In this document: in pieces, positions 1,149 to 20,683 of the stretch
Layout: each line of letters opens with the position of its first letter
How positions within the stretch are numbered: the first letter of the stretch is position 1
Origin: a virus
DNA length: 20,683 bases
Strand: one strand, 5' to 3'
IMG/VR virus record: IMGVR_UViG_3300024262_000311
Span: 1 to 20,683 of that record
Position numbers and translations under genes: made by a program
The notes under the pieces: generated by a model
What the model was told of the DNA's origin: nothing
The model's database searches: none
The model's input: only the letters and a program-made list of their open reading frames with translations

Positions 1149-1164
1149 AATATGTTACCAGTAT

Positions 1165-1392: not shown

Positions 1393-1405
1393 AATTAACA
1401 AGTTA

Positions 1406-1455
1406 CTTGGTTTGCGGGGTTTTTCAATTATTAAATTATGCGTCCTCTAACCAAG
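1406..1455 (-). other. Possible hairpin around the end of the 76-residue gene
   Basis: CTTGGTT (1455-1449 on the minus strand) and AACCAAG (1412-1406) form a perfect 7-bp stem with a loop of about 36 bases. The upstream arm contains the last codons and reaches into the TAG stop at 1447-1449, and the stem ends 13 bases before the next ATG (1392). There is no T-run after it, so it is not an obvious terminator. It could modulate translation of the following HNH-like gene. The long loop makes it weak. Confidence 0.25.
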
Positions 1456-5146: not shown

Positions 5147-7785
5147 TATGCGGTGAGGGTTGCAGAAGTTGTATTAACAGAACCAAACTCGTTCGAGATT
5201 ACGCATCTGTATAGGTAGCCTATTTTTGGTCCTGTGTTCGTGACGGTCAGAGTCATAGAGTCTTCCCCGGAGTAATCTACTCCCGAAGGGATTGCTACGA
5301 AACCAGCTCCGGTATTCTCTTCCCAAGTATAGTCAAGAGTTTCTCCTTCAGTGGCCGTTCCCGTGCAAGAGAAGATCACAGGAGGGGAGGCGTCAGACTG
5401 GTTAGTTGGATTTGCTGAAACTGACGGAGCTGCCGTAAGGACAGTTAACGCAAAGGTATCACTGTCAGAACCTCCGGTATTCGTAACTGTTATACGGTAT
5501 TCGAACTCGTCTCCGTTTTGAAGGTTGCTTATTTGCAGTCGAGAAGATCCCGCCGCATCCGTGATAGTGACGGTTCCAGAAGCGGAAGGACTTGGGTCAG
5601 CGTCATTTAGAGTAACCCAAACACCTCCGCCAGTAGAGTCGTATTCCCACACAACACTAGGCGCAGGAGCCCCTGTAAAGAAGTAGCTAACATCGAGTCC
5701 GTCCGTCTGTGCTAGAAACTGAGCACTATTTGAAGTGGTTAGGGCCGCTGCGGATTCATTAACTGTAACTTGGGCACTAGATGAGATAACAGAACCAGCC
5801 CCATTACTGACCGTGCAACGGTAGTATTGTTGGTGGTCAGCTTGCGTGATCGCAGTGAAAGACAAATTAGCTGTCCCTTGTCCAGAGTCTCCGGGGAGGG
5901 CTGTTACGTCTGCCCAACCTGTAGCTCCGTCAGCGGAGTATTCCCACAAGTAAGTCAGTGGAGAAGACCCAGTCACTGCCACGGAAAGGTTAAGGGTTAA
6001 CCCTGCGTCTAGGGTTTGGGTCAAGGGATCCGAGGTTATGTATGGAGCTGATAACACGTCAAGAGTTACAACATCTGACTGAACTTCCCCAGCAGCATTG
6101 ATTACTTGACAGAAGTAGTCAGAACCATCTATCGCAGGATCCGCTCCTGTAATGGTGTAGGTATTCAAAGTTTCTCCACCGATCAAAGAACTCAAGGCCG
6201 AAGCAACTCCAGTCGGAGAGGTTGTAAAGTCAACAGCACTACCCCCTCGAGAGGTACTCAGTTGGAAGGTATTTGTCCCACCGCCATAAGAGTTGTTTAT
6301 GACAAAGTATTGAGTTGCAGCACTAAACTCTCCGGGCTGTCCCGCAGTGAAAACAAAAATGTCTCCGTCGGTAAGCTGGTCTCCCGTTAGAGTTACCTCA
6401 TCTGTAGGACTACTAAAATCAAGATTTACGCTGCCCGCTTCTACATACCATTGATATGTCGGTAAAGGAGAGCCTGTCGCATTGATTAAGAACGTTACAT
6501 CATCGTAAGCGTCAATAGACTCGTTGATAGGCTGTAACGTGATAACGGGTAAGCTATCTACAAAAAGAGGAACTGTCGTAGAATCGACTGACCCTGCTGC
6601 GTTCGCTACGGTGCATAAGTAATCGTCAACGTCTGAGACGTCTATGTTACTTATAGTAAGAGTAGATCTTTGATGTCCAGAGACGGTGTCGTCTACAATA
6701 CCAATATCTCCTCCTGCGGATAGAGGAGTTCCTCCTTTTTTCCAAGTGAAAGTCACGTCCGGTTCTCCAGCGGCTTCAATAACAAATATTGCAGTGCCTC
6801 CAGTAGTTGCTGATTGTAAAACAGGTTGCACGAGTATTGAAGGCGCTTGAGTTCCAATAGACAACACGGCCACGGCACTCTCTGTAGTAGCTACTGCGTT
6901 AGTAACTTTACAAGTATAAGCTCCTTGGTCAGCGACTTGAACATTTGTCAAACTCAAAGATATCGTAGCTCCTGAAGTTGTCGAACCGGATTCTCCTCCA
7001 ATAGCCACAGCTGTTTTATACCATTGGTAAGTCATAGGTTCAGCTCCAGCTGCAACACACTCAAAGAGAACATTATCTCCGACAGAGGCAACATCCGTAT
7101 CGGGTTGATCGGTAAAGAAAGGAGCGTCTGCAATGATTGCAAGGGTCGCTGCGTTTGATTCTGTGGAGCCTTTAGTGTTGGTAGCTACGCAAGTATAAGC
7201 TCCTCCGTCGGCTATTTGTACATTTGACAAAGTCAAAGTAGAAGCTGTTTCACCCCCTATAGGAGTTCCGTCAAGTTCCCATTGGTAAGTAGCGGCAGGG
7301 ATTGCGTCCACAGTAACGAAGTAAGAGAGTCCTCCTCCTACGTTTGCAGCTTGTGAAGTCGGAAGTGGATGGGCTGTAAATTCTGGTGCATACTCAATAG
7401 TTGCGGAAACAGTATCACTTGTAACGCTCCCAGCAATATTAGAAACTATACATTTGTAATCAGCAGCATCGGTCTTTACGCTCGCAGCGATAGTTAGGGT
7501 AGAAGAAGTCTCCCCCGCAATATCTACGCCATCTTTTTGCCACTGGTACGAAGGGTCTGGTAGTCCAGTCGCCGTAACCGAGAAAGTTAAAACAGCTCCA
7601 AGGTCGACAGTTTGTGCAATGGGTTGTACAGAAATTACAGGGATTGTAGCCAGCTGAACTGTCACATGAGTAGTCTCTACCGAGCCCTCGTCGTTAGTAA
7701 TTACGCAGTAATAGTCTCCCGCATCCGCAGCTTGAAAGTTTTCTATAACAAGTTCGCTGTTAGTCTCGTCTGTAATCTCTGCCAT
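5146..7785 (-). CDS. Chain of Ig-like (I-set type) domains, virion decoration or adhesion protein
   Basis: 879 residues that are almost entirely Ig-like domains. Residues 1-48 are only the second half of a domain (SELVIENFQAADAGDYYCVI); the first half is at the end of the upstream gene. Complete domains lie at about 49-133, 134-221, 222-314, 315-412, 413-580, 581-678, 679-785 and 786-879. The repeated signature is QP..Q.....G, then YQW.KDG..I.GETSS-LTI..V..AD.G.Y.C...N..GS. Only the domains at 222 and 786 have both canonical cysteines; most others keep one. The domain at 413 carries an insert of about 65 residues. Phage Ig-like domains are known on capsid and tail surfaces, where they bind host glycans or mucus weakly, and several are attached by frameshifting. 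ATG lies one base after the upstream TAA, with AAGG six bases before it. It may be made alone by re-initiation, as a fusion, or both. Confidence 0.85.
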   Translation of the reverse strand: MAEITDETNSELVIENFQAADAGDYYCVITNDEGSVETTHVTVQLATIPVISVQPIAQTVDLGAVLTFSVTATGLPDPSYQWQKDGVDIAGETSSTLTIAASVKTDAADYKCIVSNIAGSVTSDTVSATIEYAPEFTAHPLPTSQAANVGGGLSYFVTVDAIPAATYQWELDGTPIGGETASTLTLSNVQIADGGAYTCVATNTKGSTESNAATLAIIADAPFFTDQPDTDVASVGDNVLFECVAAGAEPMTYQWYKTAVAIGGESGSTTSGATISLSLTNVQVADQGAYTCKVTNAVATTESAVAVLSIGTQAPSILVQPVLQSATTGGTAIFVIEAAGEPDVTFTWKKGGTPLSAGGDIGIVDDTVSGHQRSTLTISNIDVSDVDDYLCTVANAAGSVDSTTVPLFVDSLPVITLQPINESIDAYDDVTFLINATGSPLPTYQWYVEAGSVNLDFSSPTDEVTLTGDQLTDGDIFVFTAGQPGEFSAATQYFVINNSYGGGTNTFQLSTSRGGSAVDFTTSPTGVASALSSLIGGETLNTYTITGADPAIDGSDYFCQVINAAGEVQSDVVTLDVLSAPYITSDPLTQTLDAGLTLNLSVAVTGSSPLTYLWEYSADGATGWADVTALPGDSGQGTANLSFTAITQADHQQYYRCTVSNGAGSVISSSAQVTVNESAAALTTSNSAQFLAQTDGLDVSYFFTGAPAPSVVWEYDSTGGGVWVTLNDADPSPSASGTVTITDAAGSSRLQISNLQNGDEFEYRITVTNTGGSDSDTFALTVLTAAPSVSANPTNQSDASPPVIFSCTGTATEGETLDYTWEENTGAGFVAIPSGVDYSGEDSMTLTVTNTGPKIGYLYRCVISNEFGSVNTTSATLTA

Positions 7786-7786
7786 A

Positions 7787-7800
7787 TTAAACCTTAAACC
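7787..7800 (-). repeat. 7-bp tandem repeat (GGTTTAA)x2 at the split Ig domain; candidate recoding or slippage site
   Basis: The minus strand reads TGG TTT AAG GTT TAA T ATG across the junction of the connector-like gene and the Ig-chain gene. The 14 bases 7800-7787 are two perfect copies of GGTTTAA, the second containing the TAA stop. The downstream gene is in the +1 frame, open back past this point for nine codons (a TAA in that frame lies eleven codons before the first GCA of the Ig gene). A +1 shift at GTT TAA T would give YQWFKV-NMAEI; deletion of one 7-base unit, or a hop from UUU to UUU, would give YQWF-NMAEI. Both complete the Ig domain with near-normal length. AAGG also stands six bases before the ATG and could serve re-initiation instead. 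Confidence 0.6.
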
Positions 7801-9079
7801 ATTGGTAAGTTATTCCGGGATTGCCTATAGCTCCCACGCCTAAAGTGAGTGTTCCGCCTTGAGCGATTACTTGACCTTGTGGTTGTGTCAAAATAATAGG
7901 GCTAAAAGGTTCCGCTCCCCTACAAGTAGCGGGGCCTCTATCGACATTGAGTCTGCGTTCTCTCTTCTTAGCTGAGGCAAGCCTGCGTCGATATTCTTTG
8001 AAAGCTGCTGAAGCGGGTTGCGCTTTTGTCCCTGCTTCCTCTACATACCCGTAAATCTGAACTAGGACAAAGTAGGAAATAGCTTTAGCGGCTGTTTCAT
8101 TGAAAACTACTGTATCCCCGTCTGAGTAATCTAGTTTAGTACCTTCCCAAGTGATCTCTAATTCTACCACATCCCCAAGTAATTGAGGATATACTAGGAA
8201 CTTAGAACCTCTCGGGTCAAAGGTTATAACAGGTTCACAGTTACAGGAATTACAGATAACTTGATCTTTTAAGTTCCAAGGGACGAACCGTACTTGGCAA
8301 CCACAAATATCCTCAAGTCCGGGATATCTTAAAGTAGCCGTGAGGGGTACCGCTCCTTCTGGTAAAGTTCCCTCAGAGGCGTTCCCTACAGGGAACATGT
8401 CAGAAGCGACGTATAGATTAGAATTTTCTAATCGGTATTCGGGTATAAAGTGTTGCAGGTCAAGGAGTCCTTGTCGGATCTGTTGGTCGATAAATACATC
8501 AAAACCTTCAATATCAAGTAGGGATTTTTCAATCTGTTCATCCATCCACTCGCCGAGGGCTTTAATATCCTGCTTCCCTTCTTCGATCATAGCATCGACG
8601 TAATCGATCGTATTCTGACGGTCTTTATCGACTGGGAGGTAAACTCTTACCTTGTTACGTAAGTCAATATCCGAAAGGGCTGTTTCATACCCAACAAGGC
8701 GAAAACGATCTTTTTCATAAGAAGACCGTACAACCATTGCAAGTTCTTGATTCTGCTCTATTTCTGAAAGAATATTAGACTTAACAAATTTAGAGATTGT
8801 GGAAATAAACAAGGACTCTGAGTGGGCGTCAGATAGAAAATCCTTTACTTGGGTTTGTACGTCAGAAAGACTCAATGAAGTTTTATACCCCACCAAGTCG
8901 TTTCTCGCACTGTCGTAACTCCCTTTGTGGGAGCCATAGGAAGTAAGATCTCTTAGGAATTCTCGGGAATAGTTAGCTCGTACAAAGGTGGCTACGGTGC
9001 GGATCAACTGATCGTCGGTCCGGTCTTTGCCTCCTGTTGCGTTGTCTTTTACTAATTCCTTGAACTCCAAATAGGTCAT
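7787..9079 (-). CDS. Connector/adaptor-like virion protein ending in half an Ig domain
   Basis: 430 residues. Residues about 27-82 and 92-148 look like an internal duplication: both have T...FV(R/K)(A/S)N early and LVGY(K/E)T(A/S)LS near the end. Residues about 155-215 are helical. Residues 250-295 contain a cysteine cluster, C259-x-C261 ... C276-x2-C279-x-C281, a possible metal site. Residues 300-380 (DTVVFNETAAKAISYFVLVQ...YRRRLASAKKRERR) resemble the helical tail of head-tail connector or adaptor proteins. From residue 393 (SPIILTQPQGQVIAQGG...ITYQWFKV) the protein is the first half of an Ig domain (strands A to C), cut by TAA; the rest is in the next gene. AAAGGA five bases before the ATG is a fair Shine-Dalgarno. 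The head-tail adaptor role is inferred from position and fold style; no family is recognised with certainty. Confidence 0.7.
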   Translation of the reverse strand: MTYLEFKELVKDNATGGKDRTDDQLIRTVATFVRANYSREFLRDLTSYGSHKGSYDSARNDLVGYKTSLSLSDVQTQVKDFLSDAHSESLFISTISKFVKSNILSEIEQNQELAMVVRSSYEKDRFRLVGYETALSDIDLRNKVRVYLPVDKDRQNTIDYVDAMIEEGKQDIKALGEWMDEQIEKSLLDIEGFDVFIDQQIRQGLLDLQHFIPEYRLENSNLYVASDMFPVGNASEGTLPEGAVPLTATLRYPGLEDICGCQVRFVPWNLKDQVICNSCNCEPVITFDPRGSKFLVYPQLLGDVVELEITWEGTKLDYSDGDTVVFNETAAKAISYFVLVQIYGYVEEAGTKAQPASAAFKEYRRRLASAKKRERRLNVDRGPATCRGAEPFSPIILTQPQGQVIAQGGTLTLGVGAIGNPGITYQWFKV

Positions 9080-9080
9080 T

Positions 9081-9668
9081 TTAATCCTTTAAGTATGCGA
9101 CCCAAGCGTCGACGTTGTGTCCTTTTTTAGGGTCTCTCTTAGGAGCTCCCTCCTCTTTTGCAAGGTCTTTAAGCTTGTCCTCCGATTCTCCTGTGAACTC
9201 TGCGAGTTGTCGGTAAGATGTAGCAAATTCTGAAACAGCTTCTGAAGCTTCTTCTCCGATATCCTCCGAAAGAGCTGATACCTCGCTAAGTTCTTCCTTC
9301 GTGAAAAGACTTTCTTTTTCTTCACCATCTTCCTGTCCCACATGTTCTACAACCGGAGCCTCTTGAGGAGGACCCGCTAGAATAACTTGTTGGAGATTTG
9401 TTGGCTGCTCCAAGGTTGTTAGAGAGGAGTGTAAGGGCTTTTTTTTTCCGACCATCTGATTGTATTCGGCTTTATCAATTTCCGTAATTCCAGATTTAGG
9501 ATTAGAGATAATAGGTTTCAAAGCCTCTATAATCTCTGCATCGTCAGTTGAAAATACTCCTAGATACATCCCAGCGGATACGGAGCAAAGTTCAAAGTTA
9601 ATAGTAGTCCCTTGGGAGAGATTTACAGGGTGTTTAGCCCTCTCAGTCAAATAGTATTTAGTTATCAT
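9081..9668 (-). CDS. Unrecognised acidic protein downstream of the decoration gene
   Basis: 195 residues from ATG at 9668; a TTG directly before it also keeps the frame but is a poorer start. Residues 1-75 look like a compact domain (YYLTERAKHPVNLSQG, SVSAGMYLGVFSTDDAEI, KSGITEIDKAEY). Residues 75-165 are acidic, Glu/Ser-rich and helical, probably flexible. The end (KRDPKKGHNVDAWVAYLKD) is basic then amphipathic. No family recognised. Its place between a capsid-decoration-like gene and a connector-like gene, and its size, fit a head-completion or minor head protein, but that is only contextual. It starts just after a terminator-like hairpin, with an A/T-rich leader and no Shine-Dalgarno. Its stop is one base before the next ATG (TAAAATG), so it is coupled to the connector gene. 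Confidence 0.7.
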   Translation of the reverse strand: MITKYYLTERAKHPVNLSQGTTINFELCSVSAGMYLGVFSTDDAEIIEALKPIISNPKSGITEIDKAEYNQMVGKKKPLHSSLTTLEQPTNLQQVILAGPPQEAPVVEHVGQEDGEEKESLFTKEELSEVSALSEDIGEEASEAVSEFATSYRQLAEFTGESEDKLKDLAKEEGAPKRDPKKGHNVDAWVAYLKD

Positions 9669-9679
9669 CAATAATATAA

Positions 9680-9717
9680 AGTAAAGAACCCTCGGACTTT
9701 GTCAAGCACGAGGGTTC
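9680..9717 (-). terminator. Terminator-like hairpin after the decoration gene
   Basis: On the minus strand GAACCCTCG (9717-9709) and CGAGGGTTC (9694-9686) form a perfect 9-bp stem with a 14-base loop, followed by the T-rich tract TTTACTTTATATT. It lies 28 bases after the decoration gene's stop. The T-tract is interrupted, so termination may be partial. A TTGACA in the loop looks like a -35 box, but there is no -10 at a normal spacing. Confidence 0.6.
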
Positions 9718-9745
9718 GAAGGTTTGTATTTTTACACGTTATACA

Positions 9746-10345
9746 CTACACGGGAATGTCGGTAAACTGCTCAACTTCCAAAACTCCTTCGAAGATTGTA
9801 TCGGCTGCCGCAGGGGTAGCCTTAACCTCTAGTGTTTTGAGAGTGTCGTTCGCAGTTACAGTTACTGTGTAAGCAGCGTCTTCAAACTTGACAGCGTCGT
9901 TAGTTCCTACAATGGATGTAGAAGTTAAGTCAGCTGCAACAAGTCGGTAGATAGCGTCACCATTACCTCCAGAGATTGTAATAACATCTCCGGGCTCATA
10001 GCCAACCCCACCAGCGTTGACGGTAAAACTTGTAATCACTCCACCAGAAGTAGTCGTATCGACCGTAAGGCCTGTTCCACTCCCACCAGTAGTAGCTACA
10101 GCTGTGTTATTTGAATAACCTGAACCTCCGTTAGAAGGAGCGATCCCAGAGCCGGCTACGGCAGCGGGAGCGTTCTTAATAACACCAGAGATAAAGTGTA
10201 ACCCGTTTTCCTCAGTTGTAACGTCTTTGATTCTAAGCTTGACCTTGAAGTACAACATTTGACCAAAAGGGATAGCTTTTGAAGCAATAACTTCAGCCGC
10301 TCCCCCGCCAGTCAATGTGACTTTTGGTATCTTGAAATTTTTCAT
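9746..10345 (-). CDS. Capsid decoration / head-fibre-like small virion protein with Gly-rich insert
   Basis: 199 residues. The two ends look like one small beta-rich domain: residues 1-62 (KIPKVTLTGGGAAEVIASKA...LHFISGVIK) and 140-199 (DAVKFEDAAYTVTVTAND ... EVEQFTDIPV). Between them, residues about 66-136 form a separate Gly/Ser/Thr-rich module with GSGYSNN, GGSGTGLTV, GGVGYEPGDVITISGG. This GSGY...GDxxxxxGG style of beta repeat recurs in phage fibres and decoration proteins. It is the first gene after the major capsid gene and is bracketed by terminators, as expected for an abundant capsid accessory protein that binds the outer shell. The decoration role is inferred from position and composition. 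It ends in TAG. Confidence 0.65.
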   Translation of the reverse strand: MKNFKIPKVTLTGGGAAEVIASKAIPFGQMLYFKVKLRIKDVTTEENGLHFISGVIKNAPAAVAGSGIAPSNGGSGYSNNTAVATTGGSGTGLTVDTTTSGGVITSFTVNAGGVGYEPGDVITISGGNGDAIYRLVAADLTSTSIVGTNDAVKFEDAAYTVTVTANDTLKTLEVKATPAAADTIFEGVLEVEQFTDIPV

Positions 10346-10360
10346 ACTTATAAATTTTCC

Positions 10361-10397
10361 TTAAATAAAAAGGAAGGCGAGGAGTTTAACCCTCGCC
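10361..10397 (-). terminator. Intrinsic terminator after the major capsid gene
   Basis: On the minus strand GGCGAGG (10397-10391) pairs with CCTCGCC (10382-10376) as a perfect G+C-rich 7-bp stem, extendable by a G-T pair, with an 8-base loop. It is followed by TTCCTTTTTATTT. It begins about 10 bases after the capsid stop codon, a classic position for an intrinsic terminator, and would limit read-through into the decoration gene so that the capsid protein is made in excess. Confidence 0.8.
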
Positions 10398-10406
10398 CCC
10401 GTTAGG

Positions 10407-12098
10407 TTAAGAAGTTGCAGCGCAATCCTCGTAAGTATACACTGGGCACTCGTCTGAGAAATTCTCAAGAATGAAGTGACGTTTAGTGTCTCCGAGTATC
10501 GGAGTCATCTTAGTGGATTCCATCTCTGTGTGAGTGATGTTCGCTTCGATGATACATTTGAAGTCTGGATCAGACTCAATGTCAGGAGTGTGGCTCTTAC
10601 GGCTATTAACACCAGCTACACCCATAGACAAATCGCTCCAGTCAACGGCCACTAACATATTACCACGAGAAGCAAGGTTCCCTGTGAAATGTGATTTGTG
10701 ATCTGCGAAGAAAGGATCTACGATTACATTCAACATGATCTGTGCTTCATCCAACTCGTAAGAGTTAACATTCCACATAGTTTGTTGACCGAAGGTGATC
10801 TTCTGTCCAAGGTTAGCGTTACGAGTCAAGTCCATGCCGTAACGTTTCTTGTAGTAATCATTGAAGAGAGTCTTCAAACGATTAGCTGTAGACTTGTCAG
10901 TCATGATATCGATACTGTCTACGGAACCTCCATCAACTTCACGGTAACGCTTCAAGCTGTATAGTTGTTCTTCAAGATAGTTGATGTCAAGTTTTTGACC
11001 GAGGTTGTCAACAAGACGGTTACATCCACGTAACTGCTCACGTACACCGATTGCGTTTGACTTATATTCAATCAAACCGTTGTTCCCACGAGGGTCTCTT
11101 ACCTGAGGCAAGTTCTTGTAGTCTTCAACTGTTTGGTGTTCGTCAATCTGCTGACCGTACCAGAACGTGTTCATCATCTTACGCTGATACAAAGCATACA
11201 TACGCTTGTTCTGCTCAGACATTGGGAGTTCTTTGAAACGCTCAAGGTATGGATTTACTTGACCAGCGAAAATACGCTTCAAGAAATCTTCATACAAATC
11301 GTCGTAACAACGAGTGTAACGCATTGTCTGAGGCCAGAAAGCAATAAGACGCTTGCTGAGATCAGAAGGCTGATTGTAGCACCAAGACTCATAGTCTGAT
11401 ACTGAGTTAGCTCCCATTTGAACAACCCCAGCTTGTGCTTGGTAAGGAAGTCTTTCAGCAGCTGTCATACTAGCCCACTTAGCGTCAGTAACGTTAGGAG
11501 CAAGGATAATGTCTGCCTTTTCAATACCACCAGCGTTCGCATTAACGGAAGTAATTACCTTGTAATAAGGTTCTGTTACAGTTCCAGAAGCTGAGAGATT
11601 AAGAACAACAACGTACTCACCCGGAAGAGCATAACGCTCGAGGTTTGAAATCGTAGAAGTCCAAGGAGAAGCAGAAGCTTTAATGGTAATTTTCCAAGCA
11701 CCGATTGGGTGGTAAACTCCATTAACAGTAGTTCCTGCGTCTGGGTCAACGACACCAGCTTCGATCTGAAAAGCATTTGCATTAACAAGATCCTCTTGCT
11801 CTCTCAAGATATAAGGGAGGAAAAATGATTTGTTAGGACCGAGGTTCTGCTTGCTGATCTCGCCCTTAACGTTGGAGATACGTGACATCATAAGATCCCA
11901 CATAGAATTCTCACGAACACCACTCATACGAGCCATGGTTGTTTGACGGTACAAGAAGAATTCCATGAAAGCTGTATCTTTCAATTCCTCCATCTTGGCG
12001 GGGGTTAACCCTGTAATGTCCGCTTTCGTAAGAGATCCGTCACAAGAGTTTGAGACGTCTATGATACGGGGACCGCATTGACTGAATATATCTGACAT
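10407..12098 (-). CDS. Major capsid protein (HK97-fold type, inferred)
   Basis: 563 residues. It is identified by position (directly after an acidic scaffold and large portal gene), size, an intergenic leader of its own and a strong terminator behind it. The N-terminal 80 residues are helical (KMEELKDTAFMEFFLYRQTT), resembling an N-arm. Residues about 100-250 are beta-rich with ITIKAS, EYVVVLNL and YYKVITSV strands. Residues 260-400 are strongly helical and charged (spine-helix-like). The C-terminal part has alternating strands such as GKLA-type loops and ILGDTKRHFILENFS. No single diagnostic motif exists for this fold at sequence level, so the assignment rests on context. The protein starts MSDIF, the same five residues as the ejection-type protein. 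There is no Shine-Dalgarno before the ATG; the leader is A-rich (AACACTAAAATT). Confidence 0.75.
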   Translation of the reverse strand: MSDIFSQCGPRIIDVSNSCDGSLTKADITGLTPAKMEELKDTAFMEFFLYRQTTMARMSGVRENSMWDLMMSRISNVKGEISKQNLGPNKSFFLPYILREQEDLVNANAFQIEAGVVDPDAGTTVNGVYHPIGAWKITIKASASPWTSTISNLERYALPGEYVVVLNLSASGTVTEPYYKVITSVNANAGGIEKADIILAPNVTDAKWASMTAAERLPYQAQAGVVQMGANSVSDYESWCYNQPSDLSKRLIAFWPQTMRYTRCYDDLYEDFLKRIFAGQVNPYLERFKELPMSEQNKRMYALYQRKMMNTFWYGQQIDEHQTVEDYKNLPQVRDPRGNNGLIEYKSNAIGVREQLRGCNRLVDNLGQKLDINYLEEQLYSLKRYREVDGGSVDSIDIMTDKSTANRLKTLFNDYYKKRYGMDLTRNANLGQKITFGQQTMWNVNSYELDEAQIMLNVIVDPFFADHKSHFTGNLASRGNMLVAVDWSDLSMGVAGVNSRKSHTPDIESDPDFKCIIEANITHTEMESTKMTPILGDTKRHFILENFSDECPVYTYEDCAATS

Positions 12099-12223
12099 AA
12101 TTTTAGTGTTTCATATTTTGTTTTTAGATAAGTTAATTCTATAACAAGTTAAGCCTCTAAAAAGTATTTTGCAAGCTGTTTCTTATTAGAGACTTAAAAA
12201 ATTAACGTGTTAGGTTATCCTTG
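12099..12223 (-). promoter_or_regulatory. Leader of the capsid gene with long hairpin and palindrome-like motif
   Basis: This 125-base gap is the longest in the window. On the minus strand TTAAGTCTCTAA (12197-12186) pairs with TTAGAGGCTTAA (12160-12149) as a 12-bp stem with one U-G wobble and a 25-base loop. There is no T-run after it, so it looks like an mRNA leader or processing/stability structure rather than a terminator. Immediately after the stem is TAACTTGTTA (12151-12142), which also occurs just before the HNH-like gene (1405-1396). The remaining leader to the ATG is A-rich. A promoter for the capsid gene could lie here, but no consensus pair with correct spacing was found. Confidence 0.45.
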
Positions 12224-13783
12224 TTAAACGTCGTCGGGAAACTCTGGATCCAACATAGCGTCATACAAAGAGTTACCTGTCGGTTTATTCTTAGACACTT
12301 GGTTCCCGGGCTCTCTAGAAGGACGTTTAGACTTAGGCTTTATGTCCTCATCAGATTCTTTAGTTTTTGGTTTTTCCTTAGCATTTGCCCCTCTAAGTAT
12401 CCTATCAATCTCTGCATCTGATAAACCTCGGGACTTTAAAGAGCGAGTAAGCATAGTTTCTTGTGAAGAAACCTCGTCTTTAATCCCGTTTTCAATACGT
12501 ATTTTCATGTCAACCGCAAGGAGTTCTAACAGGTCTTGATCTGAGAAAGTCCAGTGTTTCGCTTGCTCTTCTCTGGATAGAGAAAAGAACTTCTCTCTAG
12601 GCATAAAGAACTTGTCACCCTGCTTCAAAACCTTCTCTCCTTCGGGGTGTGCTACCATGTCTTTCCCGAACTGAATAATCTTGTTACTGAGTTCTGCTTG
12701 AACTGGATTGTCCTTATCATACTCAGCAAGACCTAGACGCAACTCCATAAGAGACTTGCCCATTTCTTGAGTTTTCTGAAATTCTCTTCCTGCCACAGCG
12801 GTTTCTATAGGTAGTGATTCTGCTACTTTTTTAACACCCTCGTCGTCAAACCCGTTCTCTTGGTAAGCCTTTTTCAAACTGTCCGGTAGATAGTCCACTA
12901 AGTTGCTAACGTATTTTTGAACGGTTTTTTCCAACTTAGGTTTGTTCTCAGAATCCCGGATCTTGTCCTTGAGGGGTTTATACTTTTCCTCGATGTTTTT
13001 CTCAGCTCTTTTGGTAGCCTGATCGATCAAGTAATCCTGACCCAGCATCTGGAATTCTTCGGGATCTACTTTGGGTTTATGCTGGGATACCCAATCTTCA
13101 AAGTCTGGGTTATCAGAAAGAGGGGTATCTGGATCCTCGGCTAATAATTCTTTGGCCTTAGCCTTCAACCCCTTCAGATATTCAAGATGTTTTGCGGCTC
13201 TACCTTTGTAGGCTGGATCTTTAGACTCTGCGTGTTTCCAGACGTCGAGAGATTGTTTTTCGGAAAGTGTCAACGTAGATATAAACTCGGCATCCTCTTT
13301 TGAAACTTCCTCCTCGGCTTGGGTTTTCTCTTTAGAATCAAAACCCTCGAAGTCGGGTTTAAAATCATCGTCGGTAAAAGCTTCTTTAATGGAAGGTTTT
13401 CTATCAACGACTTCCTCGTCAGCCTCATCAGACTCATCGTCAGAGACCTTGGTGGAATTATCCTCCTTGTTCTTTTTATCCTTCTTTTCCTTAGAAGTTT
13501 TGTCTTTCGGAGTGTCGGCTTCCTCATCAACCTCTTCGGGAGGATTAGAGTCTAGATTCTTATTGCCCTCAATACGACGTAGGGTTTCAGCAACACTCCG
13601 CCCTTTGTGGCTAAATACAGAAAGTTCCTCTTCTTCTTGGTCAATACCTAAAAGTCTAGCCTCTTCAGGGCTGTACCTTTTCGTAGGTGGTTCTGGAGTG
13701 TCTAACATAAAAGACATATCAACCGGGTTGATATATTCTTCGTTCTCTACCTCTTCGTTTTCAGTCTCTTGGGTTTTGCTCAT
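12224..13783 (-). CDS. Capsid scaffold protein (inferred)
   Basis: 519 residues, very rich in Glu, Asp, Lys and Ser with almost no aromatic core in the first 170 residues. These carry low-complexity acidic stretches (KDKTSKEKKDKKNKEDNS, VSDDESDEADEEVVD). Residues about 180-400 are predicted largely helical (LEYLKGLKAKAKELLAED, DQATKRAEKNIEEKYK). The C-terminus is basic then acidic (KPKSKRPSREPGN ... MLDPEFPDDV), the usual site for coat-protein binding in scaffolds. Position between portal and major capsid, length and charge are those of a phage scaffold that guides procapsid assembly and is later removed. No protease motif (Ser-His-Asp set) was noticed. Starts 11 bases after the portal stop with no clear Shine-Dalgarno. 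Confidence 0.7.
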   Translation of the reverse strand: MSKTQETENEEVENEEYINPVDMSFMLDTPEPPTKRYSPEEARLLGIDQEEEELSVFSHKGRSVAETLRRIEGNKNLDSNPPEEVDEEADTPKDKTSKEKKDKKNKEDNSTKVSDDESDEADEEVVDRKPSIKEAFTDDDFKPDFEGFDSKEKTQAEEEVSKEDAEFISTLTLSEKQSLDVWKHAESKDPAYKGRAAKHLEYLKGLKAKAKELLAEDPDTPLSDNPDFEDWVSQHKPKVDPEEFQMLGQDYLIDQATKRAEKNIEEKYKPLKDKIRDSENKPKLEKTVQKYVSNLVDYLPDSLKKAYQENGFDDEGVKKVAESLPIETAVAGREFQKTQEMGKSLMELRLGLAEYDKDNPVQAELSNKIIQFGKDMVAHPEGEKVLKQGDKFFMPREKFFSLSREEQAKHWTFSDQDLLELLAVDMKIRIENGIKDEVSSQETMLTRSLKSRGLSDAEIDRILRGANAKEKPKTKESDEDIKPKSKRPSREPGNQVSKNKPTGNSLYDAMLDPEFPDDV

Positions 13784-13794
13784 AATGTATGTTG

Positions 13795-16293
13795 TTATAT
13801 GTTAGGAGGGCCTATGGCCGATTGCGGAGTAGGACTTTGGTCCTGTATCGCTTGTTGTTGTGCAAGTTCTTGTTGTTGTGCTGCGTCTACTGGGTTCTGA
13901 GGAGCTGGTGGTTGAGTCCCTAGTTGTAGTTGCAGCTGTTGGGCTATCTGAGTAACTGCTCCATCGAGTTCTTGGACTCCTTGTGCATTCTGCTGGATAA
14001 CTTGTAAAATCTCTTCCATAGAAGGAGCTCCCTCAGGAGTTTGTTGGTCTCCTTCACTCTCAGGATTTAGTTTAAGAGTTATGGTAGTTCCAGAAAGCCT
14101 AAAGGCCTCGGTTATCATCTCGAACAGTTGTTTTTGACCAACAGCTTTAACCATAGCCTCATTGCCTGTTATTGTTCCTAGGAACTGGAATATAGCTTGA
14201 GCCGCCTCTACAGACTGCGTACGTACCGCACCATCCCTAGAGTTGAAGATGTAGTCGTGAACAAGAGAGTTCTTTGAACCCGTAATGGTCTGTTGTACCT
14301 CAAGGAGGTTAGATTGAACGTCATAGTTTTCGATCTCCTCGGGGTTTGTAACTTTAAAACCAGCAGCTCGGATAACGTCGTCTGGGTAGGTATCTACAAT
14401 AGGGACGTAAACTTCGTTCTTCCCAGAAGCCATCAAGGATTCGTACAGGATACGTTTCATAGCGGCTCTGAACTCATCGGGGCCTTGAGACGTAAAGTTG
14501 AAAAGAGCCGTTGTAGTGTTGGCTACTTCTACAACCTCTGAAGCGGATACCTCCCGCTCAACAAACTGTCCAAGTTCCTGAGGGCTAAACATCTGAGTCT
14601 TCTCAAGAAGGCCGATAATGTTAGTGATACCTCTGAAAGTCTCTGCTATTTGAGCATGTAGGTCTGACGTCTGGAACTTAAAAGGAGAATCCCTCACTGG
14701 GTTTTTACCTCGTAGCTCTTCCTCATCCCCAGAACTATATTCAGCAATAAGGGCCTCGGAATGGAAACGTCCAGTCTTAACAAACTTTTTGATGTACTCT
14801 CGGGCATCATCTTCTAAACTGTCTACGTCAATGGCAAGAATCATGAAAGACTCTAAACGCATTAAGTAGACAAGCTGACTCATAAGGTTGTCCGCCTGAT
14901 CCTGATATGGTAGGATCTCATGAGCCATTCCCGCATTGAGAAGTCTGCCATCATCTTCATTGTAGCCCATATAAGCTGCCGGAGTAGACGGAAGAATTTC
15001 TGCATGGACCACTGTATCGTCATTAGCAATAACGAGCTTAACCCAAACAGGGTGCGGGTAGTCCCCAAACCCTTTATCTTTAGGAATAACCTTTTCATAG
15101 TAAGTAGCTAGGAAAACCGCTTGGTCGTCCTCAGCGTCAGTAAGTAATCCGGTATTAGTCTTGCGCTCGTTCTTAAGAGCTATTTGAGTAGCAGACTCTG
15201 TAGGTGCTGGAAACTTGATTACTGTATCTGGGTAGTACGCATCAAAGAAAGATTGATAGGATGTGTAAAGATCGTCAAGGGCGCTGGCTGTTTTTATCTC
15301 GTTACGATTAAAATACCCAGAATCTCTCTGGATATCCTTAGCTTGAACCACATCCCAAAAACCTAGGTATTCAACCCCGTTGTCGTAATTGACAGAGGAT
15401 AGAGGGGATGCCATATCATAGAAAACTCTAGACGGGTGAGGTGTAACGAACTTAACCCCCTCTTTTGTAATGACTTCCTCAAGTTCCCAAGCATCTGAAG
15501 TGCTTTCTAAAAAATTCTTTCGGTATTGTTTTTCTCGATCCCAAGCAGATTCAACAAAAGCTACCGTGTGCCCGTGAAGGAAACATTTCCTAAGCCACTG
15601 AGTAAATTCTGGACGGTATCCGTATTGGTCAGTTATAACCTCTACTCGCTGAGAAACAGCATCTGACCGTAAATTACCAACGTGGGTTTTGGCTCTCGGT
15701 TCGTATTTGAAAAAAGGATAGAGGTTGGCAAATCGGTTAGTTTGAGCCGCTACTCTGCGAGTTACGAAGGGGCGTATCAAGTTAAGAGCTGACTCAGAAA
15801 AACGACCTAAATCAATAGAAGTTTTTCCTCCAGATTCCTTTATGATGTACTCTTTCGCTTCGTCCTCTCCTAAAACTTCCTCTAGTTGTTTGGCACACTC
15901 TTGGACGTTTAACTTGTTCTGAGCGTACAAAGTAAGGGGGATTGTCTCGTTCACTACAGGACGTCCATCAAAAGCTAAGTCGGCAGCGAAGTAAAACCGA
16001 TAGTTGTTAAGGTTCCATAGACGGCCCTCATCTAAACGATCGTGTATGTTTTGGATCCACTTGTCTTTTTTTGCAACAAGTTTACGGAGGTACTCTTTAC
16101 GGACCTGTTTTTCAGCTTTCTCGCTGAGGGGTTCATCCTCGCCTTCATCCTCTCGTAAGGATTCTAGACGGGCAATCTCCCGTTCAACCAAACTTTCGGC
16201 CTCAGGAGGGTTGTCCTTTTCTCTAGCTAGAAAAAAGGCTTTTAAAGACTTATTGGTCGTCTTAAACTTCTTGAGAACTTCGTAATCTATCAT
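13795..16293 (-). CDS. Portal protein (inferred)
   Basis: 832 residues, in the size range of large podovirus portals. Residues 1-85 are a charged helical N-terminal extension (EREIARLESLREDEGEDE). Residues about 85-600 contain the likely wing, stem and clip regions, with RPFVTRRVAAQTNRFANLYP, a stretch of Tyr/Trp-rich strands, and helices such as DQADNLMSQLVYLMRLESFM. Residues about 725-832 are Gln/Ala/Pro-rich with an amphipathic helix (AQGVQELDGAVTQIAQQLQL), like the C-terminal barrel of P22-type portals. The protein would form the dodecameric ring at the DNA-entry vertex, bind terminase, and carry the tail. The assignment is from size, architecture and place before scaffold and capsid; no terminase gene is in the window. 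The ATG lies inside the end of the upstream small gene (32-base overlap). Confidence 0.7.
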   Translation of the reverse strand: MIDYEVLKKFKTTNKSLKAFFLAREKDNPPEAESLVEREIARLESLREDEGEDEPLSEKAEKQVRKEYLRKLVAKKDKWIQNIHDRLDEGRLWNLNNYRFYFAADLAFDGRPVVNETIPLTLYAQNKLNVQECAKQLEEVLGEDEAKEYIIKESGGKTSIDLGRFSESALNLIRPFVTRRVAAQTNRFANLYPFFKYEPRAKTHVGNLRSDAVSQRVEVITDQYGYRPEFTQWLRKCFLHGHTVAFVESAWDREKQYRKNFLESTSDAWELEEVITKEGVKFVTPHPSRVFYDMASPLSSVNYDNGVEYLGFWDVVQAKDIQRDSGYFNRNEIKTASALDDLYTSYQSFFDAYYPDTVIKFPAPTESATQIALKNERKTNTGLLTDAEDDQAVFLATYYEKVIPKDKGFGDYPHPVWVKLVIANDDTVVHAEILPSTPAAYMGYNEDDGRLLNAGMAHEILPYQDQADNLMSQLVYLMRLESFMILAIDVDSLEDDAREYIKKFVKTGRFHSEALIAEYSSGDEEELRGKNPVRDSPFKFQTSDLHAQIAETFRGITNIIGLLEKTQMFSPQELGQFVEREVSASEVVEVANTTTALFNFTSQGPDEFRAAMKRILYESLMASGKNEVYVPIVDTYPDDVIRAAGFKVTNPEEIENYDVQSNLLEVQQTITGSKNSLVHDYIFNSRDGAVRTQSVEAAQAIFQFLGTITGNEAMVKAVGQKQLFEMITEAFRLSGTTITLKLNPESEGDQQTPEGAPSMEEILQVIQQNAQGVQELDGAVTQIAQQLQLQLGTQPPAPQNPVDAAQQQELAQQQAIQDQSPTPQSAIGPPNI

Positions 16294-16564
16294 GTTGAAC
16301 CGGAGATGGGTAATCCTTTAACTCTTCGTTTAAGGTAATATGTTTATAGTAATTTTCCCAAAGGTCAAGGAGAACGCAGGCAGGCCCCGGAAGTTTATTA
16401 TCTTTCAAACAGTTCTTGAAAGTCCAAGGTTTCATGTTTAGGTAGGCGGCTAACTCATCATACTCTATAACAAGCAGTTTGCAAAAAGTATCTACCTGAA
16501 CCCGATCCCATTTGTGGACAAGGCCTTTATTGAAAGATTGGATGAGTTTTACGTTAGCTAACAC
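16262..16564 (-). CDS. Small helix-turn-helix-like protein before the portal gene
   Basis: 100 residues. GTG start at 16564, eight bases after the preceding stop; no ATG is available upstream in frame. Residues about 30-75 read like a helix-turn-helix: DTFCKLLVIEYDELAAYLNM, then KPWTFKNCLKDNKLPGPACV, then a helix LLDLWENYYK. The C-terminus is short and polar. Being next to the portal, it could be a small terminase subunit or a regulator; the large terminase gene is not adjacent in the window, which weakens the terminase reading. It overlaps the portal start by 32 bases in another frame, so the two are coupled. Confidence 0.6.
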   Translation of the reverse strand: MLANVKLIQSFNKGLVHKWDRVQVDTFCKLLVIEYDELAAYLNMKPWTFKNCLKDNKLPGPACVLLDLWENYYKHITLNEELKDYPSPVQHDRLRSSQEV

Positions 16565-16572
16565 GTTTACGG

Positions 16573-16914
16573 TTACTTAATCAGTTTGGTCAAAGTTTCC
16601 ATGACCTCTTTATGTTGGTTATCCATCTTCTTCTCAAGTTCTTTGAGTTCCACTTTAAGCTCTCGGATCTCTTCCTTTTTAGAATACTGGTCACTAACCT
16701 GAAGTTCAAACTTATGAAAATGAGCTTCTAACCGCTCAATCCTAGCACCTAAACCATTACTGTCCTCTTCGTCTTGCTTGAAGTTTCGCCCTATTGCTTT
16801 ATCGAGTTGGTCAACCCTAGCCATAACTACGTTATTAAGTATCCAAGCTGCACCTGAACAAATTGCGGCGAATATTACAGCGATAACGCCAAGGTCTGCG
16901 ATAGTTAAACTCAT
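16573..16914 (-). CDS. Membrane-anchored coiled-coil protein (possible spanin-like or accessory lysis protein)
   Basis: 113 residues. Residues about 5-28 are a hydrophobic helix (DLGVIAVIFAAICSGAAWIL), a single membrane segment or uncleaved signal anchor. The rest is a charged amphipathic helix with heptads (RIERLEAHFHKFELQV, EEIRELKVELKELEKKMDNQ), a coiled coil. N-terminal anchor plus long periplasmic coiled coil is the layout of inner-membrane spanins, and also of some DUF2730-like phage proteins. Its place right after a holin-like gene supports a lysis role, but no partner outer-membrane spanin is certain. Start ATG at 16914; stop eight bases before the next gene. Confidence 0.65.
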   Translation of the reverse strand: MSLTIADLGVIAVIFAAICSGAAWILNNVVMARVDQLDKAIGRNFKQDEEDSNGLGARIERLEAHFHKFELQVSDQYSKKEEIRELKVELKELEKKMDNQHKEVMETLTKLIK

Positions 16915-16943
16915 GTTACTTAGTCTCTATAATAGGTGCTTCT

Positions 16944-17504
16944 TTACTTTCTGAATACTGTGCCTGTAAGGACGTATTGGACGATGGCAATGACTGGGTG
17001 GAGGAGGATGAATGCGAGTCCGCCTGTGGAAAGTACTGCTGCTTCTTTCGGAGAGATCGCAATGTCAACGATCCCCCAGAGGAGTTTAACCCCTGTCCCA
17101 TCTTGTCCGGGGACGAAGGTTTGGACCATAACGTCTGGGATGTCTGCCCAGATGAGGATTGGGAAGGTGATTGCGAGTGTGAGCATGAACAATGCCCCAT
17201 TGTGAGCAAGACTAGCAAGCCCATATACCAACTTCTCTTTTTTCGATTGTGTCTCATAAGCGTATTTCCAATTCCCTAATTGTATTGAGGTTTTCTTTCC
17301 AGAATCAAGTTCTACTTCCAGAGGCGGTGCATTAAGTGTTTCTAATACTTTACGACCATGCTCTGATTGAGCAAGCCACATATTCCTTTCATGTTCTGAC
17401 TTTTCTCTACGCTCCTGAGAACGGAAAGTAAGAAAGGCTTTAAGGAGTCCTAATAGACCCCCTAAAACTTGTGCGGAAAGTAGACTTGCTATCCCTGCTA
17501 TCAT
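16944..17504 (-). CDS. Holin-like membrane protein with three hydrophobic segments
   Basis: 186 residues. Hydrophobic segments lie at about 3-27 (IASLLSAQVLGGLLGLLKAF), 95-120 (LAHNGALFMLTLAITFPILI) and 155-181 (GGLAFILLHPVIAIVQYVLT). A charged linker of about 65 residues (KSEHERNMWLAQSEHGRK) separates the first two, and the protein ends in a short basic tail. This is the architecture of three-segment phage and gene-transfer-agent holins; the exact family is not certain. Its ATG overlaps the stop of the beta-helix gene (GCATAATG), and AGGAG lies four bases before it. It precedes a membrane coiled-coil gene, so the two look like a lysis pair inserted between fibre and head genes. No endolysin is seen in the window. 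Confidence 0.6.
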   Translation of the reverse strand: MIAGIASLLSAQVLGGLLGLLKAFLTFRSQERREKSEHERNMWLAQSEHGRKVLETLNAPPLEVELDSGKKTSIQLGNWKYAYETQSKKEKLVYGLASLAHNGALFMLTLAITFPILIWADIPDVMVQTFVPGQDGTGVKLLWGIVDIAISPKEAAVLSTGGLAFILLHPVIAIVQYVLTGTVFRK

Positions 17505-19966
17505 TATGCTCCTGCGGTTATTGCGGGTGAGTTCGGTAACAAATTGAAATTACCGTTCGCTGGGTCGATGAATAGAGGGTTTCCATTATTAGTACCGATC
17601 TCACTGGGGGTATCCCCAAAGATCGAAACGTCAGTGGTTGTAAAAGTCCCTGAAACCCCATCAGAGAAAGTGTTTCCAGTGGTTTCGTTAAGAACAATTA
17701 TGCTATTTTTTAGCACTACCTGTGCTGAGGTATAATTTCCAGCGAACTTATTATTAGCATGGGCTAGGGCACAATCTAAATAGAAATTACAGTTTTCAAC
17801 AAGTAGGCTTCTTGACACAAGAGAACCTCTTGCCCAGATAATACCATGATTGTTTTGAGGGATGCAAGTACCTCCAACGCTCGTATTTATTAACTCTAAA
17901 GTTCGATCCGAATAGAATAAGTTATCTGTTGAATCCCCAAAAACTAAACAACTTTCAAATACGTCTTTAACCGTTTGCGTACCTGTGGCTACATAACCGA
18001 AAAATCCTCCGTTTGTTCCAAAATCGAACCTTAAATTCCTGTAATATGTGTCATAGTTAGAGGCCTCTTGTTGGAGTCGATATCCACTCCCTGTATCAAC
18101 TACTTGTTTATTTGCAGTAGCACTTCGATAGTCGTAACCACTCTTAACAGTCTGGCTGCCTGATATAGTGCCTCCAGTAACTGCAATTATATCTCCCACA
18201 AAGTATGTAATTGCGTCAATACTTGGTACGTCTGCAAAAGATTGCCAAGGTGATCCCGAAGTCCCTGCTCCACCAGTCCCCCCTATTGATAAGTCTAGAT
18301 ACCAATCTGGAGTAAACCCACCACCACTCGCAATCGCTGGAGAGTTAGGTAACAGGTTTAGGTTGTTGTTGGCTGGGTCGACTAAGAGGAAGTCGTCTAC
18401 TAGCGTTACGTCTGCGGAAGCATGAATACTCGTAGACCCTGTAAGCCCGAAACAGCCTTGGACATTAGCATTACTACCCCAACTTATAGGGACTTTAGTA
18501 GCAATAATACCCTGTGCTAATTCTAAGATAGTCCCAGTCTCGAATAATATAGTGGTTAGAGGTACAGTACATCCTATAGCTTTTAACCTCGTGGACGCAT
18601 TTTGAGCTAAAGATACGTTCAACCCATTCTCTGTCAGTATCGTACCAATAATCTCACAGTCTGGACACGTCTGGAATATCCTACCGCCATGTAGTGGGTT
18701 GCAATCTAAGAAACAGCCATGAACGCTCACTACATCAAATCTATAAAAAATGCCGTTGACGGGATTACCACCATAAGCACCTTCAAATTTTAGGTTTATA
18801 AAGGTAGCTTCCGTACCTGTTGTAGCTATGTCTCCATAAAAAACTTGATTAACCCCTGCTGTAATCTTTAAAGAACATTTAGTAGGATCGGTTTCTTGAC
18901 CTATCATAGTCAAAGCACCCGCAGGGAAGATCCAACTGCCTGAACCCTTGTCATGTACCCCCTCTTTTACGACCCAAATATCGCCAGTAGCGAAAGCTGC
19001 TTGCCACTCTGCGTAAGACCTAACAGGATTGTTAAAATCTAAACCTGAGCCAGTTCCTCCCGCTTCGTTGAAGTCCAACCATTTCACACCATCTGTAGCA
19101 AAATCTGCTGTATCTGGATAATTCTTACCACCCCCAGCAGTAATCGCAGGGCTGTTTGGTAGGAGGGCGAGGTTGTTGTTTTCTGGGTCTATGAAGAGAA
19201 GAGAAGTGTCAGTCCTATTTATTACATTCTCCCAAAGAACGTCAGTTTCTACCCTATTAGCCCCGAAATTATCTGCATTTAGTACACCGCTATCGTCTGA
19301 TACTAAACACGATTCAAGGGTAAGTACTCCAGTGTCCCCATCTAGGGTAGCACTAAGATTATCACTAGGTATCTTGATTGTACAATTCCTTAGGGTGAAT
19401 ATATCAGCTTGTGCTCTCCCGTGGAAAAGCGACTCGTACTCAAAAGTTCCTTGAGCCACAAGAGCTTTGGGTTTTATAACACAACCTACCATCTCTACGT
19501 TTGCAGGGTTGAGGTCTCCAAAAGTAGAACCGAAGCAACTACCTGTATTATTCGATGTTTTCTGAGCCTCTAACGTGCACTTAGTGAATAATGTCTTAGA
19601 ACCGCCTGAGTTTTCCAGATTAAAAGCACTATTATGAAATGAGCCAAAGTCTGCACCCAAGAGATTAAGACTATCAAAGTAAGTGTCTGAGGAAACAAGA
19701 GCTATAAACTGTGCATTTGCAGTGAATTGTAAGTCTATAGTTGATGGGCTAGTCTTAGACTCGGAAGTGTAAGTCATGCCACCTGCAAACGTAACATCAG
19801 CAGAAAGTAAGTGAATACCAGAAGTAACCTTAACAGTCCCCCCACTAAGGGCTACACCCTCAGCAGCAGCGATTGTCAATTTAGGGCCGCCTGTCCCTCC
19901 GTCCCATTCAGGAAGTAGTCCGTTCCATGTGTCATTTCCCGCAGTCGGGTTCCAGTAGCTAATCAT
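17504..19966 (-). CDS. Tail spike candidate: three tandem right-handed beta-helix units
   Basis: 820 residues built from three units of about 270 residues (1-279, 280-549, 550-820). Each starts with a W/Y-x-D/N-P-like strand and a Gly/Thr turn (WNPTAGNDTWNG; WLDFNEAGGTGSG; WYLDLSIGGTGGAG), runs through short strands with buried Cys/Asn/Leu ladders, and ends with the same motif: FIDPENNNLALLPNSPAITA, LLVDPANNNLNLLPNSPAIA and LFIDPANGNFNLLPNSPAIT. The last motif ends exactly at the stop. Parallel beta-helix units closed by DP..N..L.P.SPAI.AG are known in surface and adhesion proteins (choice-of-anchor Q-like, DUF1565-like). In a phage the likely role is a trimeric tail spike that binds or cuts host polysaccharide; no catalytic residues can be named. 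ATG is two bases after the upstream stop. Confidence 0.75.
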   Translation of the reverse strand: MISYWNPTAGNDTWNGLLPEWDGGTGGPKLTIAAAEGVALSGGTVKVTSGIHLLSADVTFAGGMTYTSESKTSPSTIDLQFTANAQFIALVSSDTYFDSLNLLGADFGSFHNSAFNLENSGGSKTLFTKCTLEAQKTSNNTGSCFGSTFGDLNPANVEMVGCVIKPKALVAQGTFEYESLFHGRAQADIFTLRNCTIKIPSDNLSATLDGDTGVLTLESCLVSDDSGVLNADNFGANRVETDVLWENVINRTDTSLLFIDPENNNLALLPNSPAITAGGGKNYPDTADFATDGVKWLDFNEAGGTGSGLDFNNPVRSYAEWQAAFATGDIWVVKEGVHDKGSGSWIFPAGALTMIGQETDPTKCSLKITAGVNQVFYGDIATTGTEATFINLKFEGAYGGNPVNGIFYRFDVVSVHGCFLDCNPLHGGRIFQTCPDCEIIGTILTENGLNVSLAQNASTRLKAIGCTVPLTTILFETGTILELAQGIIATKVPISWGSNANVQGCFGLTGSTSIHASADVTLVDDFLLVDPANNNLNLLPNSPAIASGGGFTPDWYLDLSIGGTGGAGTSGSPWQSFADVPSIDAITYFVGDIIAVTGGTISGSQTVKSGYDYRSATANKQVVDTGSGYRLQQEASNYDTYYRNLRFDFGTNGGFFGYVATGTQTVKDVFESCLVFGDSTDNLFYSDRTLELINTSVGGTCIPQNNHGIIWARGSLVSRSLLVENCNFYLDCALAHANNKFAGNYTSAQVVLKNSIIVLNETTGNTFSDGVSGTFTTTDVSIFGDTPSEIGTNNGNPLFIDPANGNFNLLPNSPAITAGA

Positions 19967-19968
19967 AA

Positions 19969-20683
19969 TTAAATAGTAGTTGAGGTTAATGCTTCAACCA
20001 AAGCCTCAAGCCTGATTGTTCCTGCTGTGGAAGCTGAGCCAGCGTGCCAGTTCGTCTCCACCGTTATAGTCGTTCCTGTCACCGCCTTGACTTTATGTTG
20101 TCCAAGTTCGGCAGAGTCTCCATCGGCTCCTGATACAAAGATGATGTCGTCTACATTCACGTTGACCGTAAGATCAGCCGCCCCAGAACAGGTAAATTGA
20201 ATATCACCTGCGTTGTCTGCTGAACCTGTGATTGTGGTTGTCTTATCCGAACCATCAATAATTCTACCTGACGTTTTCACACATCCATAAAACTTATCAA
20301 CTGGAGCAGTTACTCCTACAATCGAACTTGCAGTCTTACATAAGCAAATCTCGCCTTGCTGTGCTACCGATAAGAATGAGTCAATCGCTCCTGTGTAGTG
20401 CCTGACAATGTTCTCGCTCTTATTGAGTATCTTACCAAGAGGTGCAACATCTCCACCGCCATTAATCACCAACGGATAAGGGTTAGCTCCTGCATCTGGT
20501 AATTGGAAATTCTGGATAATCGGTAAACCGTTCGCTCCCTTAGAATCTGAGCTACCTGTAATCAATGAATACTTCTCAGTAGCACCCAGACCAATTACAT
20601 TATCAACATCGGTATATTCGATATCGTAAGTTTCGGCAACGTCAACCGCCCCTGAAATACCTTGGGCAATCTCTCGCTTAGTT
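19969..20683 (-). CDS. Beta-rich fibre- or tail-associated protein, C-terminal part (5' end outside window)
   Basis: The frame is open from the right edge, so the true start lies beyond 20683; at least 238 codons are present. An in-frame TTG at 20565 is internal and not the start. The visible part begins TKREIAQGISGAVDVAETYD, continues with TYDIEYTDVDNVIGLG, and has a beta-rich second half with repeated short strands (TTTITGSADNAGDIQFTCSG, DDIIFVSGADGDSAELG, TVETNWHAGSASTAGTI). Not recognised as a known family. Its position directly before the tail-spike gene, with a two-base gap, suggests a fibre, spike adaptor or capsid fibre protein. Confidence 0.6.
   Translation of the reverse strand, partial: TKREIAQGISGAVDVAETYDIEYTDVDNVIGLGATEKYSLITGSSDSKGANGLPIIQNFQLPDAGANPYPLVINGGGDVAPLGKILNKSENIVRHYTGAIDSFLSVAQQGEICLCKTASSIVGVTAPVDKFYGCVKTSGRIIDGSDKTTTITGSADNAGDIQFTCSGAADLTVNVNVDDIIFVSGADGDSAELGQHKVKAVTGTTITVETNWHAGSASTAGTIRLEALVEALTSTTI

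Follow-up and report, generated by a model that had tools for sequence, protein, structure and literature searches.

A three-unit beta-helix protein encoded next to a conserved fibre domain is a probable fibre-associated adhesin of uncultured phages

Introduction

What is the role of a phage protein that closes three times with the same motif along a single chain, and how has it come to have three units? The question is raised by a 20,683-nucleotide stretch of IMG/VR virus record IMGVR_UViG_3300024262_000311 (positions 1 to 20,683 of the record; hereafter the window, coordinates of which are used throughout), where a minus-strand open reading frame (ORF) codes for an 820-residue protein that a first-pass annotation, made from the letters alone, described as a triplicated beta-helix tail spike. 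We propose that the protein is probably a fibre-associated adhesin of three right-handed beta-helix units that works with a fibre protein encoded immediately upstream, a reading that draws on sequence comparison and on the predicted structure of a relative. The features concerned are as follows.

19969-20682, minus strand: upstream fibre-like gene, its 5' part cut by the window end, with its stop 2 nt before the beta-helix ATG
20455-20670, minus strand: fibre domain marking the gene pair, YSLITG.SD..GANGLP..Q.F....GANP.PL.I.GG, recognized by similarity to loci L016 and L018
17504-19966, minus strand: three-unit beta-helix protein (P0001), 820 aa, a single ORF from 19966 to 17504
19136-19966, minus strand: unit 1, aa 1-277, by hhalign to the single-unit profile
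19142-19189, minus strand: closing motif 1, DPENNNLALLPNSPAI
18320-19135, minus strand: unit 2, aa 278-549, by a subfamily profile and slot-2 units
18332-18379, minus strand: closing motif 2, DPANNNLNLLPNSPAI
17507-18319, minus strand: unit 3, aa 550-820, by hhalign to the single-unit profile
17519-17566, minus strand: closing motif 3, DPANGNFNLLPNSPAI
16944-17504, minus strand: next gene, 186 aa, apparently membrane-associated, its start and the beta-helix stop sharing 1 nt (TAATG)

Results

Three units share a closing motif

Each of the three units of the 820-aa chain (277, 272, and 271 aa) ends in DPxNxNxxLLPNSPAI, and the LLPNSPAI segments lie at residues 268-275, 538-545, and 809-816; the spacings of 270 and 271 aa confirm the period of about 270 residues and the shared closing motif that had been annotated. 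Pairwise alignments of the units score 8.0, 10.8, and 8.9 standard deviations (SD) over shuffled sequences, and these values collapse to 2.5, 3.4, and 2.2 SD once the last 28 residues are removed, so the repeat visible in the chain is mainly the closing motif. The N terminus is the opening of unit 1, with just nine more open codons upstream, the C terminus lies 4 residues past the last LLPNSPAI, and Pfam, NCBIfam, and further family searches gave no anchor, chaperone, or trimerization family match. The 186-aa product of the next gene has no family match, and we note that gene as a neighbor without claiming it as a member of the gene pair described below.

The matches of the whole protein are weak, these being choice_anch_Q in NCBIfam (NF041518; E 2.8e-4, 21.1 bits against a curated cut-off of 25), DUF5123 in Pfam (PF17161; E 0.008, under its curated cut-off), and in the PDB only a C-terminal match to 9rx2 (E 0.07). 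The individual units are more informative when aligned by hhalign with a profile built from 62 single-unit relatives, which covers units 1 and 3 nearly end to end. Unit 1 is matched at 96% probability (E 1.3e-9, 229 columns; 92% without the closing) and unit 3 at 97% (E 3e-11, 246 columns; without the closing, score 31 against a shuffle maximum of 18). With the closing removed, the best blastp matches of unit 1 are the single-unit proteins L124 and L063 (E 3e-5 and 7e-5). In unit 2 the full-family profile finds the closing region alone; its body is picked up by the profile of a single-unit subfamily (E 1e-4, score 36.5 against a shuffle maximum of 15.7) and also by units that occupy slot 2 in other three-unit chains (E 7e-5, z 13). 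The protein is placed among beta-helix chains of the choice-of-anchor Q/DUF5123 kind, and the proposal that one chain holds three beta-helix units finds support, for units 1 and 3 from the family profile and for unit 2 only from the subfamily profile.

A conserved fibre domain lies upstream of the helix

Searches of phages and viral contigs with the window proteins (the 820-aa protein, portal, capsid, and tail) recovered one near-identical contig only. The closing motif gave one locus as a strict pattern and the single-unit phage proteins L011 and L006 as a looser one, and a search by unit alignment added two loci, L016 with a single unit in 268 aa and L018 with three units in 976 aa. Comparison of the neighbors of the window, L016, and L018 revealed a fibre domain of about 73 aa that is common to their upstream genes at 47 to 49% identity in otherwise different phages. 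The window copy aligns with the fibre C termini of L016 and L018 at 47 to 48% identity (E 2e-15 and 1e-14), and the pattern YSLITGxSDxxGANGLPxxQxF...GANPxPLxIxGG is present in the gene immediately upstream of the 820-aa ORF. The L016 fibre matches PHROG tail-fibre families and has repeat modules in common with proteins annotated as tail fibres in Lau218 and cyanophages. Among 50,697 phage records there is no match to the L016 fibre domain or to the upstream protein of the window, and the L075 fibre has short-stretch matches only, outside the fibre domain. In the relatives the domain ends the fibre protein, whereas in the window about 160 residues trail it (19969-20454, minus strand), with no family or phage match to them; the docking geometry in the window could differ from that of the relatives.

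We define the gene pair as the fibre domain plus one or more beta-helix units that run from opening to closing and are encoded downstream within about 30 nt, and the window carries such a pair, with a gap of 2 nt and three closings; a fibre protein that stops at the domain is not required by this definition. The pair sits in a structural gene block near the portal gene, and L016 carries a T7-like connector (phrog_449, E 4e-181). A search with the fibre domain only, blind to the helix, gave 49 IMG/VR loci, then the best 80 of 111, and then a few more; one of the contigs among the later matches is assigned by binning to an uncultured Flavobacteriales MAG. The gene next to the fibre domain codes for a beta-helix in 47 of 47 loci with enough sequence among the first 49, and, among the matches listed, in all 82 distinct downstream proteins (77 including that of the window, plus 5).

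Chains by the fibre domain have one unit or three

The survey of unit number in relatives that the first-pass annotation had suggested shows that the number varies, being one or three, contrary to the constant number which the annotation had named as speaking against its proposal. Among the matches listed, 72 of the 82 proteins are complete one-unit chains, contig ends truncate 4, and 6 have three units (the window, L018, L071, L074, L075, and L076), and no two-unit chain is found beside the fibre domain among them. A seventh three-unit chain, L140, is a paralogue that follows the first in the 200-kb L075 contig, with closings near 371, 746, and 1078.

With the closing removed, the units of three-unit chains match units of other phages rather than their chain-mates. 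In L018, unit 1 resembles the single-unit L054, unit 2 the single-unit L016, and unit 3 that of L071; unit 1 of L071 resembles unit 1 of L074, the slot-2 units are alike in L071, L075, L076, and L140, and unit 3 of L074 resembles those of L076 and the single-unit L125. A change of slot is seen between L074 unit 2 and L140 unit 3 (54% identical), and units 1 and 2 of L018 (30% identical) are an exception to the dissimilarity of chain-mates. The three-unit chains thus read as mosaics in which units are replaced and the count stays three. Two further resemblances are noted within them: unit 2 of L075, L076, and L140 has an insert that by eye only resembles cupredoxin (HAxxIYNSQG...YYYQCTVxGHxNMRG), and the N-terminal part of unit 1 in L075 and L076 resembles CBM_5_12 (E 3e-5 and 0.02).

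It is possible that the number follows no rule and that domains are simply concatenated, freely added and lost, with shared ancestry as the reason why three is common; such a view rivals a one-or-three rule and not the adhesin reading. Units 1 and 2 of the window match slots 1 and 2 of other three-unit chains, which suggests common descent, and the three-unit chains may for this reason share one ancestor whose slots were later replaced, in which case "always three" rests on few independent events, though on several slot replacements. Free concatenation is also illustrated by L014, a 405-kb contig that is unrelated and outside the pair, where a chain longer than 3,100 aa contains six or more segments running from opening to closing. 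Against it stands the distribution by the fibre domain among the matches listed, where the 72 one-unit chains and the six three-unit chains plus the paralogue are accompanied by none of two units, despite the replacement and movement of slots. We note that the L014 ORF (positions 1-20000) is a giant one in which helix segments are separated by repeated fibronectin-like domains, and that it may be bacterial DNA and not phage.

The predicted fold and the question of enzyme activity

AlphaFold2 predicts with confidence a beta-helix for the single-unit L063 (62 sequences; pLDDT 89.7, pTM 0.90), with PL6 chondroitinase B, PL6 alginate lyases, and PL9 pectate lyase as the nearest solved folds and generic phage beta-helix proteins as viral structural neighbors. 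The 820-aa protein itself, modeled with six diverged rows only, has a pLDDT of 37 and a pTM of 0.33, and its fold is for that reason taken from its relatives, the window units being linked to the modeled L063 by profile matches. DUF5123 is matched by 38 of the 62 single-unit relatives; in a literature search one paper mentioned it in passing, with nothing under the family name and no "two beta-helix" depolymerases. Ten columns are invariant across the 62 single-unit helices, namely M1, G15, N210, and residues of the closing motif, and among these invariant columns there is no conserved catalytic set.

The lyase-like folds nearest to the single-unit relative, and the fact that beta-helix depolymerases are common in phages, such as the marine podovirus spike Dpo31 (PMC13317679), would suit a canonical tail spike, in which three catalytic beta-helices in tandem would each cut a polysaccharide as parts of a trimeric depolymerase. 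We regard this as unlikely, as the chain runs from opening to closing with no anchor or C-terminal trimerization or chaperone domain, its 62 relatives have no conserved catalytic set, and its upstream neighbor is always a separate fibre gene. The strict term "tail spike" is therefore not retained here, and the protein is better described as the putative beta-helix partner of a separate fibre protein. Since no catalytic residue is conserved in the family, binding seems likelier than a shared enzyme activity, although an enzyme activity would be compatible with the absence of family-wide conserved residues.

Helix bodies vary independently of the fibre

In pairwise comparisons of 67 single-unit loci, identity averages 75.5% in the fibre tag, 48.3% in the opening, 26.5% in the body, and 79.8% in the closing. 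Among the pairs of these loci with tags at least 92% identical, 78 of 103 have bodies below 35% identity, and some pairs with tags below 78% reach body identities of up to 94% (as in L062 and L085, with tags at 74% and bodies at 94%). Because near-identical tags are paired with diverged bodies and vice versa, the helix body is swapped independently of the fibre, as expected for a receptor-binding cassette.

This pattern bears on whether the helix is instead a head decoration that coats the capsid, or an assembly chaperone that transiently caps the fibre, and in either case not a receptor binder. Beta-helix genes do also occur between capsid and connector genes (L006 and L011), and fibre-linked chaperone caps are known in Alteromonas phages (PMC10579305). 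For such roles, however, co-variation with the partner is expected, yet the bodies are swapped across diverged fibres and, at the identities given above, are the most variable part of the pair; we consider both roles improbable.

The protein motif accounts for the DNA similarity at the closings

The DNA similarity that the first-pass annotation reported at the closings is present, as three 71-nt copies (17505-17575, 18318-18388, and 19128-19198) that are 62 to 72% identical. Among positions that code for the same residue, codons are identical at 9 of 15, 5 of 17, and 5 of 15, against 5.2, 5.9, and 5.3 expected from codon usage, with only the pair of units 1 and 2 slightly above expectation (9 versus 5.2). 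As codon identity is close to that expectation, the similarity is explained as a product of the protein motif, and, being set by motif and codon usage, it is not evidence of recombination. The repeats had been offered as sites of unit gain or loss, of which there is no DNA-level sign in 17504-19966, and "triplicated" does not hold as a recent event, with the units having no detectable mutual likeness outside the closing and each resembling units of other phages. A recent triplication with the DNA repeats as recombination sites, for which the position of the 71-nt repeats at unit ends and the slight codon excess between units 1 and 2 might be cited, is rejected as highly improbable given the expected codon identity of the other two unit pairs, the absence of detectable similarity among the unit bodies of the 820-aa chain, and the matches of individual units to those of other phages.

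Other features of the window

The near-identical contig (G001/L001) ends at window position 17335, just short of the helix gene. Compared with the window, 10 of its 13 mismatches fall in its last 310 bases (window 17028-17269), several of them exactly 6 nt apart, and this cluster is probably a contig-end artefact. Clear Shine-Dalgarno sequences are found at few window genes, a scarcity that is compatible with, although not proof of, a Bacteroidota host.

Within the virion gene block, the minus-strand gene at 5146-7785 codes for an 879-aa protein with about eight tandem Ig-like domains and a PHROG tail protein assignment. At its junction with the gene at 7787-9079 (7785-7830, minus strand), an Ig-like domain is split over two ORFs, the first ending ...YQWFKV-TAA and the second beginning MAEITDETNSELVIENF. 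When the two pieces are read as one through a +1 shift at GTT TAA, the Ig_3 score of the domain is 48.1 bits, against 20.7 and 23.5 for the pieces alone. The junction is a candidate programmed +1 frameshift that would add Ig repeats to a connector or tail protein.

Discussion

We favor the adhesin reading as the probable one, and the following mechanism is suggested. The fibre protein and the helix protein would bind each other, with the conserved fibre domain probably docking the helix protein at the fibre tip, and the complex would sit at the virion tail. The variable bodies would bind, and not cut, cell-surface glycans or other receptors. It is plausible that each chain offers three binding sites, and three different units in one chain could widen or strengthen binding.

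Several known systems resemble parts of this arrangement. In the T2 and S16 gp37-gp38 systems, the tip of a trimeric fibre carries a hypervariable protein that has a gene of its own (PMC12892980). As here, the gene for this variable host-recognition protein comes after the fibre gene, and a conserved fibre part is combined with a swappable partner. However, gp38 combines a poly-glycine II sandwich RBD and a beta-helix domain (PMC12892980), in contrast to the pectate-lyase-like beta-helices predicted here, and the likeness is best seen as a functional analogy; no gp38 homology is claimed. The module of Alteromonas phages A5 and V22 likewise has a fibre and a downstream partner that are common to distantly related phages, and the exchange of host-recognition modules among such phages is documented, although the partner there is a chaperone cap (PMC10579305), whereas here it is the variable member. 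Phage beta-helix tail spikes and depolymerases (Dpo31 and P22-like) have a parallel beta-helix as main body, which in the marine podovirus spike Dpo31 is a trimeric left-handed helix (PMC13317679); they have an N-terminal anchor and trimerization, neither of which is recognizable in the 820-aa chain, with its three helices. Bacterial choice-of-anchor Q (NF041518) and DUF5123 (PF17161) beta-helix proteins have the closing motif DPxxGxxxLxxxSPAI in common with the window protein, which differs in its sub-cut-off scores, its virion-gene context, and its fibre partner. The multi-beta-helix chains of L014 also have tandem opening-to-closing units, but their start resembles a signal peptide, repeat domains lie between the units, which number more than three, and no fibre domain is seen.

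The one-or-three unit count may mirror a three-fold symmetry of the fibre. We tentatively suggest that the adhesin could exist in two interchangeable forms, as single-unit chains in three copies or as single-chain fused trimers with three different units, although this is doubtful. Speculatively, a three-unit chain would then be a fused trimer that replaces three single-unit copies on a three-fold fibre. If this is true, the fused form would be a covalent hetero-trimer made of exchangeable slots, giving one fibre tip three different host-binding faces, with the slots exchanged independently among phages.

If the adhesin reading is right, uncultured phages have in these two genes a pair for host recognition, with a conserved fibre domain that signals the presence of a swappable, hypervariable adhesin. 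Metagenomes could then be screened for receptor-binding proteins with the fibre domain as a marker. A rule of one or three units would allow a direct test of whether the symmetry of the fibre restricts the number of adhesin copies, and would also bear on how a phage may display several binding specificities from one gene.
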